Shown in pieces: positions 2,352 through 42,109 of a DNA stretch of 64,000 nt (positions are counted from its first letter, which is position 1; the number at the start of each line of letters is the position of its first letter). The position numbers and the translations under genes are program-made. The notes below the pieces were generated by a model that saw only the letters and a list, made by a program, of their open reading frames with translations, had not been told where the DNA came from and made no database searches. The DNA is from Bacteroidetes bacterium HLUCCA01 (lineage in GTDB: Bacteria; Bacteroidota; Rhodothermia; Balneolales; HLUCCA01). Where the stretch lies: assembly GCA_001314545.1 (NCBI GenBank), contig LIHN01000004.1, forward strand, positions 62,001 to 126,000, read 5' to 3'.

Positions 2352-4991
2352 ATGAAGGAATGCCGGCCGGCAGGAAAGCAGTTACTCATCGTTTGGTTAT
2401 GCCTCCTGCTGGCCGGCAGCACTGCGTACGCGCAGCAACGTGAACAGGGCGCAGAGGGGGAGAACGGACTGACAACGCAGTCAAATGAAGAAGGCTCCGG
2501 CTCCGCTCTTGTGCGCTTCTCAGCACGCGACTCCCTGACTTTTCAGCTTCGTGGCTCCCGTGAAGCCCGGCTTTTCGGAAACGCCCGCGTCAGCCACACC
2601 GCTGGCGAACTGACCTCCGGTCGTATTACACTGAACCTGGATGAAACCACCATGAGTGCACAGGCCCTCACCCCCGGAGATACCCTCTCCGAGCCTGTGC
2701 TGGAGCGGGAAGGAGACCGCATCCGATCGCAGCGCATCTTGTTCAATTATGAAACCGAAAAAGGCAAGTTCGATGTAGCCCGTGTGCGCATGGACGAGGC
2801 CAGCGTGACCGGTAATCAGGTAAAACGCGTGGCCCCCCACGTCATCTTCATACGCGAGGGCATCTACTCCACCTGCGACCTCGACCATCCGCACTACTAT
2901 ATCCAGGCTGACCGGATGAAAATTGTGGACGAAGACGAAATCTTTTTCACCCGGGCCCGGCTCTACATCCTGGACATTCCCTATCCGCTGGTATTCCCCT
3001 TCGGACTGATTCCCTCCCAGATGCGCCAGAAACGCTCCGGTCTGCTGGAACCCAGCTACGTCTTTCAAGACCAGCGCGACCGCGGACTGGGCGTGCAGAA
3101 CCTCGGCTGGTTTCAGTATTTCAATGACAATATCACCAGCACCCTGCGCGGTGATATCTTCACGTCCGGAACCTTCCTGATTGACTCGCGCACCCAGTAC
3201 AACTATCAGAACCGCTACCGGGGTTCGGTTACCCTCAGCTACTCCCGGGACCGCGGACTGGAACCCACCGATCCCGATTTCTCCAAAAACACCCAGCAGC
3301 TCCTGCAGATCAACCACCAGCAAACTATTTCACCCTACGCCAGTTTCAACACCGATCTGACCCTGAGAACCAGCCAGTTCTACAACCGTAACTCCTATGA
3401 TATTGATGACCGGGCCAACACCAGTACCACCAGCCGTATCTCCTACAACTACCGGCACCCCGACGGGCTTTACACCCTGGGTGCCAACATCTCCCAAACC
3501 CAGAACTTCCGTGACAACTCGGTAAGCCTTCAGGGTCCCACCGTGAATTTCTCCCTCCGACGGCAGACCCCCTTTCAACCCGCCGTACGCCGTACCAACC
3601 CCAAATGGTACGAATCGTTTTCCTACGGCTACAATAATCGTTTCAACTCCCGCTTCAGTTTTAATCCCCTGGACGGAACCGACTCGGAAATCTCCTGGAT
3701 TGAGGCCCTTTTACGTCCATCCAAATACCGGGAAGCAACCGGCGACAACGGGTACATCGATGTAGGCTTCATTCAGTCGGCCGATGCGACCTCACAACTG
3801 CTCCCGAGCGATTATATCAACCTGACGGCAACCGTGCGCTACAATGAATACTGGTACCCGCAGACCATCCGCAGGGTATTCGATCCCCGGCAAAACCGGG
3901 TAACGGAGGAAATCGAGCGGGGATTTGCCACGGCCCGGGACTTCAACACCTCCCTTTCACTGGGAACCACCATTTATGGTACCTCCACCGCACAATTCCG
4001 CACACTGGAAGGATTCCGGCATACCATGCGCCCATCGGTAAGCTATAACTACCGGCCCGACTTCTCCTCTGATTTCTGGGGGTTTTACCGCTCCGTACCT
4101 ACAGACACCCTTGGAAATACCCAGCGATACTCCATCTTTCAGCGCGGTGTTTTCGGCGGTCCCGGTGCCGGTGAACAGCAGGCCATTGCCTTCTCGCTAG
4201 ATAACGTCTTTGAAACCAAACAGGTCAAACGCGACTCTACCGGTCGGCGGAATGAGCAGATCATCAGAATCATTGACAACCTCAGGGCCAGTGTTGCCTA
4301 TAACTTCGCTGCGGAACAGTTCAATTTGAGTCCCCTGCAATTGAATATGAATTCGCGCGTATTGCCGGATATCAGTTTCAACGCCAGTGCCACCATGAAC
4401 TTTTATGACACCGACTCCACCGGGAGGGCCGTTCCCCAATACCTGTGGGACAATGGTAACGGTTTTGCCAGGCTGACCAACTTCCGGTTCAGTGCCAGCA
4501 CCCAGTTTTCTCCGGGGCAACGCTCGCAGATTCAACCCTATCAATACCGCAATCCGCGCTACTATGACCCCTTTGACCAGAGCGAATTCCGATTATTCGA
4601 CGAAACGTTCAACGATTACCCGGTTCAGCCGCTGGATGTAGCCTGGGCCCTCAACCTGAGTTTCAGCTACAGCTGGCAACGCGTCAACAATGACACCCGC
4701 AAAAGCGCCATTCTGAATGCCAACAACATCCGCATCAGACTAACTCCGGAATGGGAGTTCACCACCTCACTGGGGTATGATTTCATCGAACAAAACCTGA
4801 CACCTACCCGGTTCAGCGTGCGGCGCAACCTGCACTGCTGGAACATGTCGTTTGACTGGAATCCATTTGGCGATTTTCAGTACTACCTGTTCCGTCTGAG
4901 TGTAACAGACACCCAGATTCAGGGCCTCATGCAGATGCTGCCGGGCTTGAATAATCTGGACCGGAGCAGCTCTCCTATCAATCGCAGATAA
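2352..4991 (+). CDS. LPS-assembly protein LptD-like (OstA-like N-terminus plus beta-barrel)
   Basis: N-terminal OstA-like region, 'STCDLDHPHYYIQADRMKI...IPYPLVFPFGLIP' signature, long beta-barrel C-terminus. Confidence 0.85.
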   Translation: MKECRPAGKQLLIVWLCLLLAGSTAYAQQREQGAEGENGLTTQSNEEGSGSALVRFSARDSLTFQLRGSREARLFGNARVSHTAGELTSGRITLNLDETTMSAQALTPGDTLSEPVLEREGDRIRSQRILFNYETEKGKFDVARVRMDEASVTGNQVKRVAPHVIFIREGIYSTCDLDHPHYYIQADRMKIVDEDEIFFTRARLYILDIPYPLVFPFGLIPSQMRQKRSGLLEPSYVFQDQRDRGLGVQNLGWFQYFNDNITSTLRGDIFTSGTFLIDSRTQYNYQNRYRGSVTLSYSRDRGLEPTDPDFSKNTQQLLQINHQQTISPYASFNTDLTLRTSQFYNRNSYDIDDRANTSTTSRISYNYRHPDGLYTLGANISQTQNFRDNSVSLQGPTVNFSLRRQTPFQPAVRRTNPKWYESFSYGYNNRFNSRFSFNPLDGTDSEISWIEALLRPSKYREATGDNGYIDVGFIQSADATSQLLPSDYINLTATVRYNEYWYPQTIRRVFDPRQNRVTEEIERGFATARDFNTSLSLGTTIYGTSTAQFRTLEGFRHTMRPSVSYNYRPDFSSDFWGFYRSVPTDTLGNTQRYSIFQRGVFGGPGAGEQQAIAFSLDNVFETKQVKRDSTGRRNEQIIRIIDNLRASVAYNFAAEQFNLSPLQLNMNSRVLPDISFNASATMNFYDTDSTGRAVPQYLWDNGNGFARLTNFRFSASTQFSPGQRSQIQPYQYRNPRYYDPFDQSEFRLFDETFNDYPVQPLDVAWALNLSFSYSWQRVNNDTRKSAILNANNIRIRLTPEWEFTTSLGYDFIEQNLTPTRFSVRRNLHCWNMSFDWNPFGDFQYYLFRLSVTDTQIQGLMQMLPGLNNLDRSSSPINRR

Positions 4992-37125: not shown

Positions 37126-39918
37126 GTGTTTGGTGAAACTCTATTATCCGTATTACCGGTCGCGCTGCTGCAGGCAGTTCCGGCATCGGAATATATACCA
37201 GACCCCTTTGTGACAGGTCTGACCACCGGCATAGCGGTGGTTGCTGTTCTTGCCTCACTGGCGATTAGCATCATTCATCGCAATAAAACGGCACTTTACG
37301 GGCTTGTTTTCATCCTGTTCGCTGGATTGTTCGCCCTTTCTCAGTTGTTTCCCGTGATCTACTCCATAGCGGATCTTCGTGGTATAGCCATCGTGGGAAC
37401 GGGTGTTTCAGCACTTCTTGTGCTGAGTCGCATGAAATTCTATGCCGACAATCCCAAGGGTATTGACATTGCCCTGTTCACCGGGTACCTGCTTTCCGGC
37501 CTTACCCTGTGGGCAGTGTTGCTTCCCGGATTTGGAGTACCGGCCACGGTAGTTTTTACCTACCTGCCCGTTATTGCCTTAATTTGTGTTTCGGCCTGGC
37601 TGTATGCCTATCGTGATGTAAAACATCCTGTCCGTCTCATGGTGGCCGCTGCTGTGGCCACACTCATCCTGATGCTTGTTCAGCATGGATCCGCAACCGG
37701 GCATTATGGTTTTGAGTTGGTTTTCGCAGATCGCGTAGCCCAGGTAATGGCCGGACTCCTGTTACCGCTGTTCGCACTTCTTATCTACATGACCACCTCG
37801 AGGGATGCCGGTACCAGCAAAGACGCCGGCAGCCCATCCGGCGATGAGCTCACAAAGCTCCAAAATATGGATCGCCTCAAAGACGAGTACGTTGCCATGG
37901 TTGCCCATGAAATCAGGACACCGCTTGCGGGGATAACGGGCATCACAGAGCTGCTGATTGAGGGCGCCGAGGGGGAATTATCAAAAGATGTGGTCAAAAA
38001 TCTGGAATTGATTTCAGGCAGCAGCAAACGTCTCACCTACTTGCTCAACGAACTTCTGGATATTTCACGCATCCAGGAAAACCTGCTCGACTACAATCCA
38101 CGGCCGGTACACCTGCGGTCGGCCGTCAACCGTGTAATAGCCCTGCAGTTCAGCAAGGCCAGTTCCAAAGGCGTTGAGTTACGCAATCAGATTCCAAAAA
38201 CCGCACCCAATGTCTATGCCGATCCGGATAAACTGGAACAGGTCTTGCATAACCTGATCAACAATTCGGTCAAGTTTACCGAAGACGGGTACGTTGCCAT
38301 TGACGCCGATGTTCAGGATGGACGCGTGGTGATTACCATCGAAGATACCGGAAACGGGTTATCCAAGGAGCACATGGACCGCATCATGGCCTCCTTCGAT
38401 GAAGATCTTACCAAACCCGTGCCAAGTCAGACCGGATCCGGGCTCGGACTAAAGATAACCAACAAGCTCGTTCGGCTGATGGGCGGAGAGCTGACGATGG
38501 AGTCGGCCCAGGGCTTTGGTTCCTACTTCGGATTTTCCGTGCCTGTTACCGAGGACGACGCCGATGTGGATGAAACCTATGAAAACTACTCGATTACCCG
38601 CCGGGCACCCTCGGCTCCGCTGACCCGGCTTGTTCCGCATCGCAACGCACATATCAGCGATAAGTTCAGGGTCATGATTGTAGACGATGAACCCGTCAAC
38701 ATCAAGGTACTCACGGCCCAGTTGAGCCGGGCAGGCTATGATGTAGTAAGTTTCCATCACGGCAGGGATGCGCTGGACTATCTGAGCGTTGAAAAAATTC
38801 CGGATCTCATTTTGCTGGACGTAATGATGCCCAACCTGAATGGTTTTGAGGTGTGTAAAATCATACGTGAAGAATATACCCAAACGGAGCTGCCGGTCAT
38901 CCTGCTTACGGCCAAAAGTCAGACCACCGATGTACTTCAGGGGTTCAAGTACGGTGCCAACGATTACATCGCCAAGCCCATTGCCAAAGACGAACTTCTG
39001 GCACGTATTAAAACGCATATGGAGCTGAGTAAAATCAACCATGCATTCAGCCGGTTTGTGCCGCATGAGTTTTTACGGTTTCTGGGCTATGAAAGCATAC
39101 TGGACATCAAGCTGGGCGACCAGGTGCAGAAAAATATGGCGGTCATGTTCATTGACATCAAAGACTTCACCCGTCTTTCTGAGAATATGAGTCCGAAGGA
39201 GTCGTTTGATTTCATCAACACCTTCCTGGGCGTGGTCAGTCCGCTGATTCGCCGGAGCGGTGGATTCATCGACAAGTTCATCGGTGATGCTATCATGGCG
39301 TTGTTCCCGGGCGGTGCGGATGATGCCCTCGGTTCAGCCGTTCTGATTTCGGATGAACTCAAAAAACTCAACGAAGAACGCAAAAGGCTGGACCTTGAGC
39401 CTATTCACATCGGTACCGGGTTGCATTCGGGTGACCTGATGCTGGGTATGATTGGTGAAGAGCTTCGCATGGAAGGGACGGTAATTTCCGATGTGGTGAA
39501 TACCGCATCACGGCTTGAAGGATTAACCAAAGTATTTGACAGCAACGTAATCATCAGTTCGGATATACTGGACGCGCTGTCGTACTCCAATTTGTATCAC
39601 TTCCGATATCTGGGCAAAACACGCGTTAAGGGGAAAAATAATATACTTGACGTCTATGGGGTAATTGAAGCGGATGACCCGCTGAAAATTAAATTTGAAA
39701 AAGCCTCGGCCGAAGCATTTGAAGCGGGTATCAAGGAGTTTTACGAGAAGAACTTTACCCGGGCGAGCGTGCATTTTAATGAAGTCTTGAAAAACCACCC
39801 GGCTGATAAGGCCGCAAGTATCTTCCTGAAACGATCGGCCCATCTGATGGTTACCGGGGTTCCGGATACCTGGAGCGGCGTTGATGAGGGAACGTATATT
39901 ATTGAGCAGAACCAATAA
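37126..39918 (+). CDS. Multi-TM hybrid histidine kinase-response regulator-class III nucleotide cyclase
   Basis: GTG start; about 7 hydrophobic segments; H-box 'HEIRTPLAGI', HATPase 'GSGLGLKITNKLVRLMGGE', REC 'MIVDDEPVN...ILLDVMMP...KPIAKDE', cyclase 'AVMFIDIKDFTRLSE...GGFIDKFIGDAIMALF...VVNTASRLEG'. Confidence 0.9.
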   Translation: MFGETLLSVLPVALLQAVPASEYIPDPFVTGLTTGIAVVAVLASLAISIIHRNKTALYGLVFILFAGLFALSQLFPVIYSIADLRGIAIVGTGVSALLVLSRMKFYADNPKGIDIALFTGYLLSGLTLWAVLLPGFGVPATVVFTYLPVIALICVSAWLYAYRDVKHPVRLMVAAAVATLILMLVQHGSATGHYGFELVFADRVAQVMAGLLLPLFALLIYMTTSRDAGTSKDAGSPSGDELTKLQNMDRLKDEYVAMVAHEIRTPLAGITGITELLIEGAEGELSKDVVKNLELISGSSKRLTYLLNELLDISRIQENLLDYNPRPVHLRSAVNRVIALQFSKASSKGVELRNQIPKTAPNVYADPDKLEQVLHNLINNSVKFTEDGYVAIDADVQDGRVVITIEDTGNGLSKEHMDRIMASFDEDLTKPVPSQTGSGLGLKITNKLVRLMGGELTMESAQGFGSYFGFSVPVTEDDADVDETYENYSITRRAPSAPLTRLVPHRNAHISDKFRVMIVDDEPVNIKVLTAQLSRAGYDVVSFHHGRDALDYLSVEKIPDLILLDVMMPNLNGFEVCKIIREEYTQTELPVILLTAKSQTTDVLQGFKYGANDYIAKPIAKDELLARIKTHMELSKINHAFSRFVPHEFLRFLGYESILDIKLGDQVQKNMAVMFIDIKDFTRLSENMSPKESFDFINTFLGVVSPLIRRSGGFIDKFIGDAIMALFPGGADDALGSAVLISDELKKLNEERKRLDLEPIHIGTGLHSGDLMLGMIGEELRMEGTVISDVVNTASRLEGLTKVFDSNVIISSDILDALSYSNLYHFRYLGKTRVKGKNNILDVYGVIEADDPLKIKFEKASAEAFEAGIKEFYEKNFTRASVHFNEVLKNHPADKAASIFLKRSAHLMVTGVPDTWSGVDEGTYIIEQNQ

Positions 39919-40178: not shown

Positions 40179-40619
40179 ATGAAAAAGAATATGTTCATCA
40201 GTACGGCTTTAATACTTGGAGTACTGGTTTTTTCGGCAACAGGTGCTGTTGCACAGATTGTTGAACAACAACCCGAAGCGCAGGGTGAAACTGTGATTGA
40301 TGTGATTAACAGCAGTGAAAATCATACGGTAATGGCATCATTACTACAGGAAACAGAATTGGATGCTACGCTCAGACAGGGACCGTCTTTCACAGTACTG
40401 GCACCCACAGATGAAGCCTTTGCAGAATTAGGGGATGCTGTTACAGAATTACAGGCTAATCCCGAGCAATTGCAGCAAGTCCTTCTGAATCACCTGTTCC
40501 AGGGGGCTGCAAGCGCTGAAGAAGTTCAGGAAGCTCTGGATGTGAACGTAGAAACCGGTGACCTTCCGGCTTCCAACGGGGTAGTACACTCAATTGACAG
40601 TGTAATACTGGAGCGATAA
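40179..40619 (+). CDS. Secreted single FAS1 (fasciclin) domain protein, short form
   Basis: Signal peptide; 'FTVLAPTDEAFAEL', 'LLNHLF', 'ASNGVVHSIDSVIL'. Confidence 0.87.
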   Translation: MKKNMFISTALILGVLVFSATGAVAQIVEQQPEAQGETVIDVINSSENHTVMASLLQETELDATLRQGPSFTVLAPTDEAFAELGDAVTELQANPEQLQQVLLNHLFQGAASAEEVQEALDVNVETGDLPASNGVVHSIDSVILER

Positions 40620-40688: not shown

Positions 40689-40905
40689 TATTGTACAAAT
40701 AGCTATGTACAACCGAACAAAATCTTAAATCGTTCAAATGAACATAAAACATTTATAACATTAGATTTACGCAAAAAAATGGAACGCTGGAAGCGGTACC
40801 ATAGTTATTGGACTTTAACAGCTTAATATGCTGTTCAAGTCAATGGTGTATCATCCAGGTAGCACTTACATACACCCAAAAATCAATGGTCTAAACAATT
40901 CAACT

Positions 40906-41757
40906 ATGAATAACTTAGGTAATGCTACGTTCGAAAACTATGTAGGTCTGACCGGATATTCGGAGATGGCCTACCAGATGTCAGCACACGTGCTGACGCT
41001 GGGCTATGCTATCATGCTGGCCTCCCTGCTGTACTTCATCCTCACTATAAAAACCGTTTCTCCCAAATACCGGATATCTTCGGTATTGTCGGTAGTGGTT
41101 ATGGTATCAGCAGCCTTGCTGCTCTTCGTTCAGGCCAATAACTGGACCTCATCCATGGTATTTGATGCCGGTACAAACCGTTACATGCTTGGCGATGGCA
41201 ACGATTTGTTCAACAACGGATACCGCTATCTGAACTGGCTCATCGACGTTCCGATGCTGCTTTTCCAGATTCTCTTTGTGGTAACCCTGAAACGAAGCAG
41301 CTTCTCATCGGTTCGTAACGGCTTCTGGTTCTCCGGTGTAGCCATGATTGTAACCGGATACATCGGTCAATACTACGAGGTAACCAATCCAACCCTGTTC
41401 TTTATCTGGGGTGCTATCTCTACGGTGTTCTTCTTCCATATCCTCTATCTGATGAAAAAGGTTATCGATGAAGGAAAAGAAGGTGTTCCGCCGAAAGCAG
41501 CCAAGTATCTGGGCACCATCTGGACACTCTTCCTGGTCTCATGGATGCTGTACCCGGGTGCATATCTGATGCCTTACCTGTTCAGTTTCAGTCTTGAGCC
41601 TGCCCTCAGCGAAACCGCTGTAGTTGCCCGCCACATCACCTATACCGTAGCTGATGTTGCCTCCAAGGTAATCTATGGTATCTTCCTTACGCTGACAGCT
41701 CAGGAACTGAGTAACGCCGAAGGATTTGACTACGATAAACTCGATACCGTAAGCTGA
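40906..41757 (+). CDS. Light-driven sodium-pump rhodopsin (NDQ / KR2-like NaR)
   Basis: Helix C 'RYLNWLIDVPMLLFQ' gives N110-D114-Q121 (KR2 N112-D116-Q123); Schiff-base Lys in 'VADVASKVIYG'; N-terminus 'MNNLGNATFENYVGLTGYSEMAYQ'; ATG 40906 preferred over 40828. Confidence 0.95.
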   Translation: MNNLGNATFENYVGLTGYSEMAYQMSAHVLTLGYAIMLASLLYFILTIKTVSPKYRISSVLSVVVMVSAALLLFVQANNWTSSMVFDAGTNRYMLGDGNDLFNNGYRYLNWLIDVPMLLFQILFVVTLKRSSFSSVRNGFWFSGVAMIVTGYIGQYYEVTNPTLFFIWGAISTVFFFHILYLMKKVIDEGKEGVPPKAAKYLGTIWTLFLVSWMLYPGAYLMPYLFSFSLEPALSETAVVARHITYTVADVASKVIYGIFLTLTAQELSNAEGFDYDKLDTVS

Positions 41758-41787
41758 TCCGAAAGTAAGGTATGAAGTAACGTATAG

Positions 41788-41831
41788 ACCCCGTGCGGTG
41801 TTTTTCCGAAAGGTACTGCATGGGGTTTTTT
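41788..41831 (+). terminator. Rho-independent terminator after the rhodopsin gene
   Basis: accccgtgcggt / actgcatggggt 12-bp stem (2 G-U) followed by TTTTTT. Confidence 0.8.
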
Positions 41832-41848
41832 ATGCAAAAGAGGTAGCT

Positions 41849-42109
41849 ATGTCTTATTTAAAAAAATGGAAACGACACGCAATTATTGGTGTAACGCTCA
41901 TCGGAACCGGCATAAATCTGATTGCCGAGGCCACCATCATAAAATCCAGAACACCTGAGTTTTATGAGATGAGTACACTGGGACACATGGCATTGTGGTT
42001 CTGGATCGGGTTATTTGGTCTGGCAGCAGTGAATGCCGGCGTATCTTTTATGGGCGATGCAGTCAAAAACCGGACGCTGCACGAACTTAAAAACCCGGAC
42101 GGAGAGTAG
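41849..42109 (+). CDS. Small (86 aa) predicted two-TM membrane protein directly downstream of the rhodopsin
   Basis: ATG 41849 'MSYLKKWKRHAIIGVTLIGTGINLIAEATIIKSR...MALWFWIGLFGLAAVNAGVSFMGDAV'; RBS-like aagaggtag. Confidence 0.75.
   Translation: MSYLKKWKRHAIIGVTLIGTGINLIAEATIIKSRTPEFYEMSTLGHMALWFWIGLFGLAAVNAGVSFMGDAVKNRTLHELKNPDGE

Follow-up and report, generated by a model that had tools for sequence, protein, structure and literature searches.

The rhodopsin gene described here raises the question of which ion its product moves in the light, and whether its host could supply the chromophore. The window, the whole 64,000-nt stretch of DNA that was analysed, lies on contig C8 of a 3.37-Mb genome (22 contigs, 98% complete) that contains a single PF01036 match. 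Two features define the gene.

40906..41757, + strand: NDQ rhodopsin (KR2 type, Subgroup 1), 283 aa, with R107, N110, D114, Q121, D250 and K254.
40828..40905, + strand: 26 codons by which the mechanical ORF extends upstream in frame, probably outside the protein; its frame is not conserved in the related loci L002 and L085.

The 40906-41757 ORF was intact and its product opened with MNNLGNATFENYVGL. A residue check located N110, D114, Q121, D250 and the Schiff-base K254, and the preliminary description of this DNA had given the ORF, its frame and the positions of the motif, Asp and Lys exactly as we found them. It had also held that the 26 aa translated from 40828 look non-native, in agreement with L002 and L085 (92% identical to the window protein), where just 4 codons upstream of the shared MNNLGNATFENYVG start are open in this frame. 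Because the extension is not conserved in these loci, 40906 is the likely true start of the rhodopsin gene. The sole Pfam match of the protein was PF01036 (Bac_rhodopsin; E = 3.7e-47, profile positions 2-222 of 224), which spans the seven-helix domain and, together with the Schiff-base K254, identified a type-1 rhodopsin. A phmmer search against the PDB returned 8JH0 (IaNaR) as the best match (E = 6e-129), followed by KR2 entries (E = 6e-111); chloride pumps (~1e-46) and then proton pumps matched more weakly.

The RNDQDK set of residues by which NaRs are recognized (PMC11006869) was complete in the window protein, as R107, N110, D114, Q121, D250 and K254. An alignment of 116 NDQ rows extended the comparison with KR2 (Krokinobacter eikastus, PDB 4XTL and others), to which the window protein is 66% identical. 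Retained were KR2 E11, H30, S64, S70, L74, L75, Q78, N81 and D102, the last belonging to the inter-protomer Na+ site, as well as Y108, R109, N112, W113, D116, Q123, Q157, E160, G171, W215, Y218, P219, R243, D251, S254 and K255, so that each KR2 residue examined beside the Schiff base and in the release gate was kept. The window protein differed from KR2 at N61, F86, T87, S253 and G263, which are S59, M84, V85, A252 and T262, respectively; all five substitutions occur elsewhere among the NDQ rows, and those at N61, F86, T87 and G263 are common among NDQ proteins. Within the NDQ family, KR2-like Subgroup 1 has Leu or Ile at KR2 L74 with D102 present, and ErNaR-like Subgroup 2 has Glu at L74 (PMC11006869). 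The window protein carries L72 and D100 at these two positions, which places it in Subgroup 1; the Glu of Subgroup 2 was not found at L72. Gly171 of DDR2 and KR2 is a small residue that opens the retinal ring and is proposed to admit a carotenoid; DDR2 bound salinixanthin, and efficient energy transfer to retinal was not detected (PMC10026069). The window protein has the corresponding G169, but this is not distinctive because Gly is invariant at this position (116/116 NDQ rows).

The nearest structures, IaNaR and KR2, are solved light-driven Na+ pumps. IaNaR comes from Indibacter alkaliphilus and pumps Na+ (PMC10679507), even if record 8JH0 bears the name xanthorhodopsin; it is ~75% identical to the window protein, in which Asp250 is numbered alike and the proposed release-gate cluster of E10, E158 (IaNaR E159) and R242 is present, and the two proteins differ by one-residue gaps in two loops and at the site of KR2 S253, where the window protein has Ala252. 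Closer in taxonomy is CYPRO_0974, the NDQ opsin of 'Candidatus Cyclonatronum proteinivorum' strain Omega (Balneolaeota), whose washed cells showed light-induced, Na+-dependent alkalinization, that is, light-dependent Na+ export in cells (PMC6243061). We take the single opsin of genome G014 (L096) to be CYPRO_0974. Like the window protein, it is an NDQ opsin from the order Balneolales and the only opsin of its genome, and the two are 69.5% identical; unlike the window organism, its host belongs to another family, and Na+ export, demonstrated in cells there, is presumed for the window protein. A putative sodium-pumping rhodopsin was also reported from the soda-lake draft genome T5-Br10_B2g13 (PMC4766312), an uncultured relative whose opsin (L018) is 78% identical to the window protein. 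NDQ pumps of Balneolales are already in print (PMC6243061, PMC4766312), and the window gene is a new sequence in a known, functionally tested group, an ordinary member of the KR2 family. It contributes one well-supported NDQ pump, from a Balneolales family other than that of Cyclonatronum, and leaves the view of how such pumps work unchanged.

The window protein is almost certainly a KR2-type light-driven outward Na+ pump, its photocycle, ion, direction of transport and expression being judged by analogy with KR2, IaNaR and the Cyclonatronum pump. The photocycle steps considered here are those of the KR2 literature. They have also been described for IaNaR (PMC10679507), and from these two descriptions and the conserved residues we infer the corresponding steps in the window protein. 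Light would isomerize the all-trans retinal bound to K254, and the Schiff-base proton would pass to D114. Na+ from the cytoplasm would move past the Schiff base and, in the O state, be held briefly near N110/D250; a swing of R107 would then let Na+ exit outward past this residue, and D114 would give the proton back. In a saline habitat, such Na+ export would generate a sodium motive force. The retinal would be the cell's own, made from beta-carotene via CrtB, CrtI, CrtY and Blh, whose genes lie on other contigs.

KR2-type pumps can move H+ without Na+, as they do in K+-only media (PMC10026069), and their ion use is thus condition-dependent. An NDQ rhodopsin working in its habitat mainly as an H+ pump could be envisaged on this ground, or one working as a light sensor, given the gene for a hybrid histidine kinase-response regulator-cyclase 1 kb upstream with a fasciclin gene between. 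Both versions appear very unlikely: the Na+-transport residues are retained as in the assayed relatives, Omega cells with their 69.5% identical opsin pump Na+ (PMC6243061), and the kinase neighbourhood recurred at a single near-identical locus (L002) and is not general to NDQ loci. Two genes 5' of the opsin, at 37126-39918 (+), the hybrid itself is a 930-aa protein that joins HisKA-HATPase_c, a response-regulator receiver and a guanylate/adenylate cyclase in one chain; a link between it and the opsin was considered and rejected on account of the same restriction to L002. The gene directly 5' of the opsin, at 40179-40619 (+), encodes a small fasciclin-domain protein and adjoins the opsin only in the close relatives L002 and L085.

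The preliminary description had found neither blh nor crt genes in the window and had placed chromophore supply elsewhere in the genome, which is where a genome search for retinal genes located them. The only blh match of the genome (PF15461, E = 1.7e-41) was absent from the window on C8 and lay on contig C3, where the gene overlaps the 3' end of the lycopene cyclase gene crtY (PF05834); a crtB-like gene of the phytoene/squalene synthase family was on contig C7, and the best crtI match, an intact 508-aa frame, on contig C9. A 'TAG inside' flag on crtI was dismissed, the 508-aa frame being open. Judged from gene content, the host of the window NDQ pump carries the genes to make retinal, unlinked to the opsin. 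A non-functional opsin, whether a decaying gene or one left without chromophore, would fit the lack of a linked retinal gene in the window, but this explanation is extremely unlikely for an intact ORF with fully conserved residues in a genome that has an intact crtY-blh pair, crtB and crtI. In many relatives blh adjoins the opsin. Among 61 genomes of the order, 25 had an opsin (21 NDQ, 4 DTE) and 23 had blh, making the NDQ pump common in the order (21/61 sampled genomes). A profile search of the host genome for the NqrB/RnfD family (NQR/Rnf, PF03116) found no member; because of this, the opsin may be one of few primary Na+ exporters of the host, the exporter search having covered PF03116.

Finally, we placed the protein among NDQ, NTQ and DTE rhodopsins, the NTQ and DTE rows coming from the opsins of 13 further genomes and of relatives. 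The helix C string RYLNWLIDVPMLLFQ is the same in the window protein and KR2 in an ungapped alignment, and the NDQ helix-C motif with this identical string was found in 80/80 related loci from public genomes. Identity of the window protein was 65.8-92.6% to NDQ rows, ~37% to NTQ and 18.8-27.8% to DTE. That misalignment of helix C has disguised a Cl- (NTQ) or H+ (DTE) pump as a Na+ pump, conceivable since all these pumps have the seven-helix fold in common, is a negligible prospect against the gap-free match to KR2 and the low identity to NTQ and DTE proteins. A first maximum-likelihood tree put NTQ inside NDQ; given its extreme branch lengths, this was probably a long-branch artefact, and we used the identity bands together with a FastTree tree on a stricter alignment in its place. 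In that tree 69/69 NDQ rows formed one group, although the NDQ node had a modest support value of 0.74, and the window protein joined L002 and L005 inside a Balneolales group. By identity and tree alike, it sits with NDQ and not with NTQ or DTE. The analysis established the sequence and its residues, the placement in the family and the occurrence of pigment genes in the genome, and the reading of the preliminary description, an NDQ-type KR2-like Na+ pump, gains support from the motif, the wider residue set, identity and the tree with NTQ and DTE rows; the alignment it had proposed, against KR2 and proton-pumping rhodopsins, likewise left the protein within NDQ.

Downstream of the rhodopsin gene lie two further features on the same strand.

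41788..41832, + strand: hairpin with TTTTTT after it, probably serving the rhodopsin transcript as an intrinsic terminator, from the fold of 41758-41850.
41849..42109, + strand: tm2, encoding an uncharacterized 86-aa protein with two hydrophobic stretches; candidate associate of the NDQ opsin and retinal genes by co-occurrence and neighbourhood.

The 41758-41850 fold contained a strong hairpin (-29.3 kcal/mol, z -3.4), which a simple consensus scan did not list; a sigma-70 promoter scan gave no match, a result that says little if the host promoter consensus differs. Searches of tm2 against Pfam and NCBIfam gave sub-threshold matches only, with no family above the cut-off. The gene was present in 14/61 Balneolales genomes, all of them NDQ-bearing (14/21 with an NDQ opsin, 0/40 without; Fisher p = 5e-9, without phylogenetic correction). 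At L023, L039, L044/G035 and L053/G060 tm2 stands third after crtY and blh, mostly converging on the opsin; in G029 the order crtY, blh, tm2 recurs on a contig that lacks the opsin, and in Cyclonatronum and several other genomes it stands elsewhere, for example beside a large tRNA-synthetase-like gene. Distant homologues in the class and phylum occur with and without opsins, an opsin being present in 22/28 genomes with tm2 versus 60/398 overall. We suggest, tentatively and as a rather doubtful proposition, that the tm2 family might act together with NDQ Na+-pumping rhodopsins or in supplying them with retinal, roles in assembly, in the transfer of retinal or in salt stability being examples; our low rating reflects that shared ancestry or a common tie to salt could explain the co-occurrence. 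If linked, the tm2 family would be the sole new point of this locus.

Two observations concern other genomes. In genome G016, a blh gene beside a DTE opsin (L091, 2249-3178; also L175) is split by a TAG into 2249-2596 and 2600-3178, possibly as a pseudogene or through sequencing error. The NDQ opsins of L041, L050 and L075 lie on contigs assigned by binning to Gammaproteobacteria, Thalassobius and Verrucomicrobiales, respectively, with crtY also at L041 and L075 and blh also at L075; their occurrence in other taxa reflects either gene transfer or binning errors.
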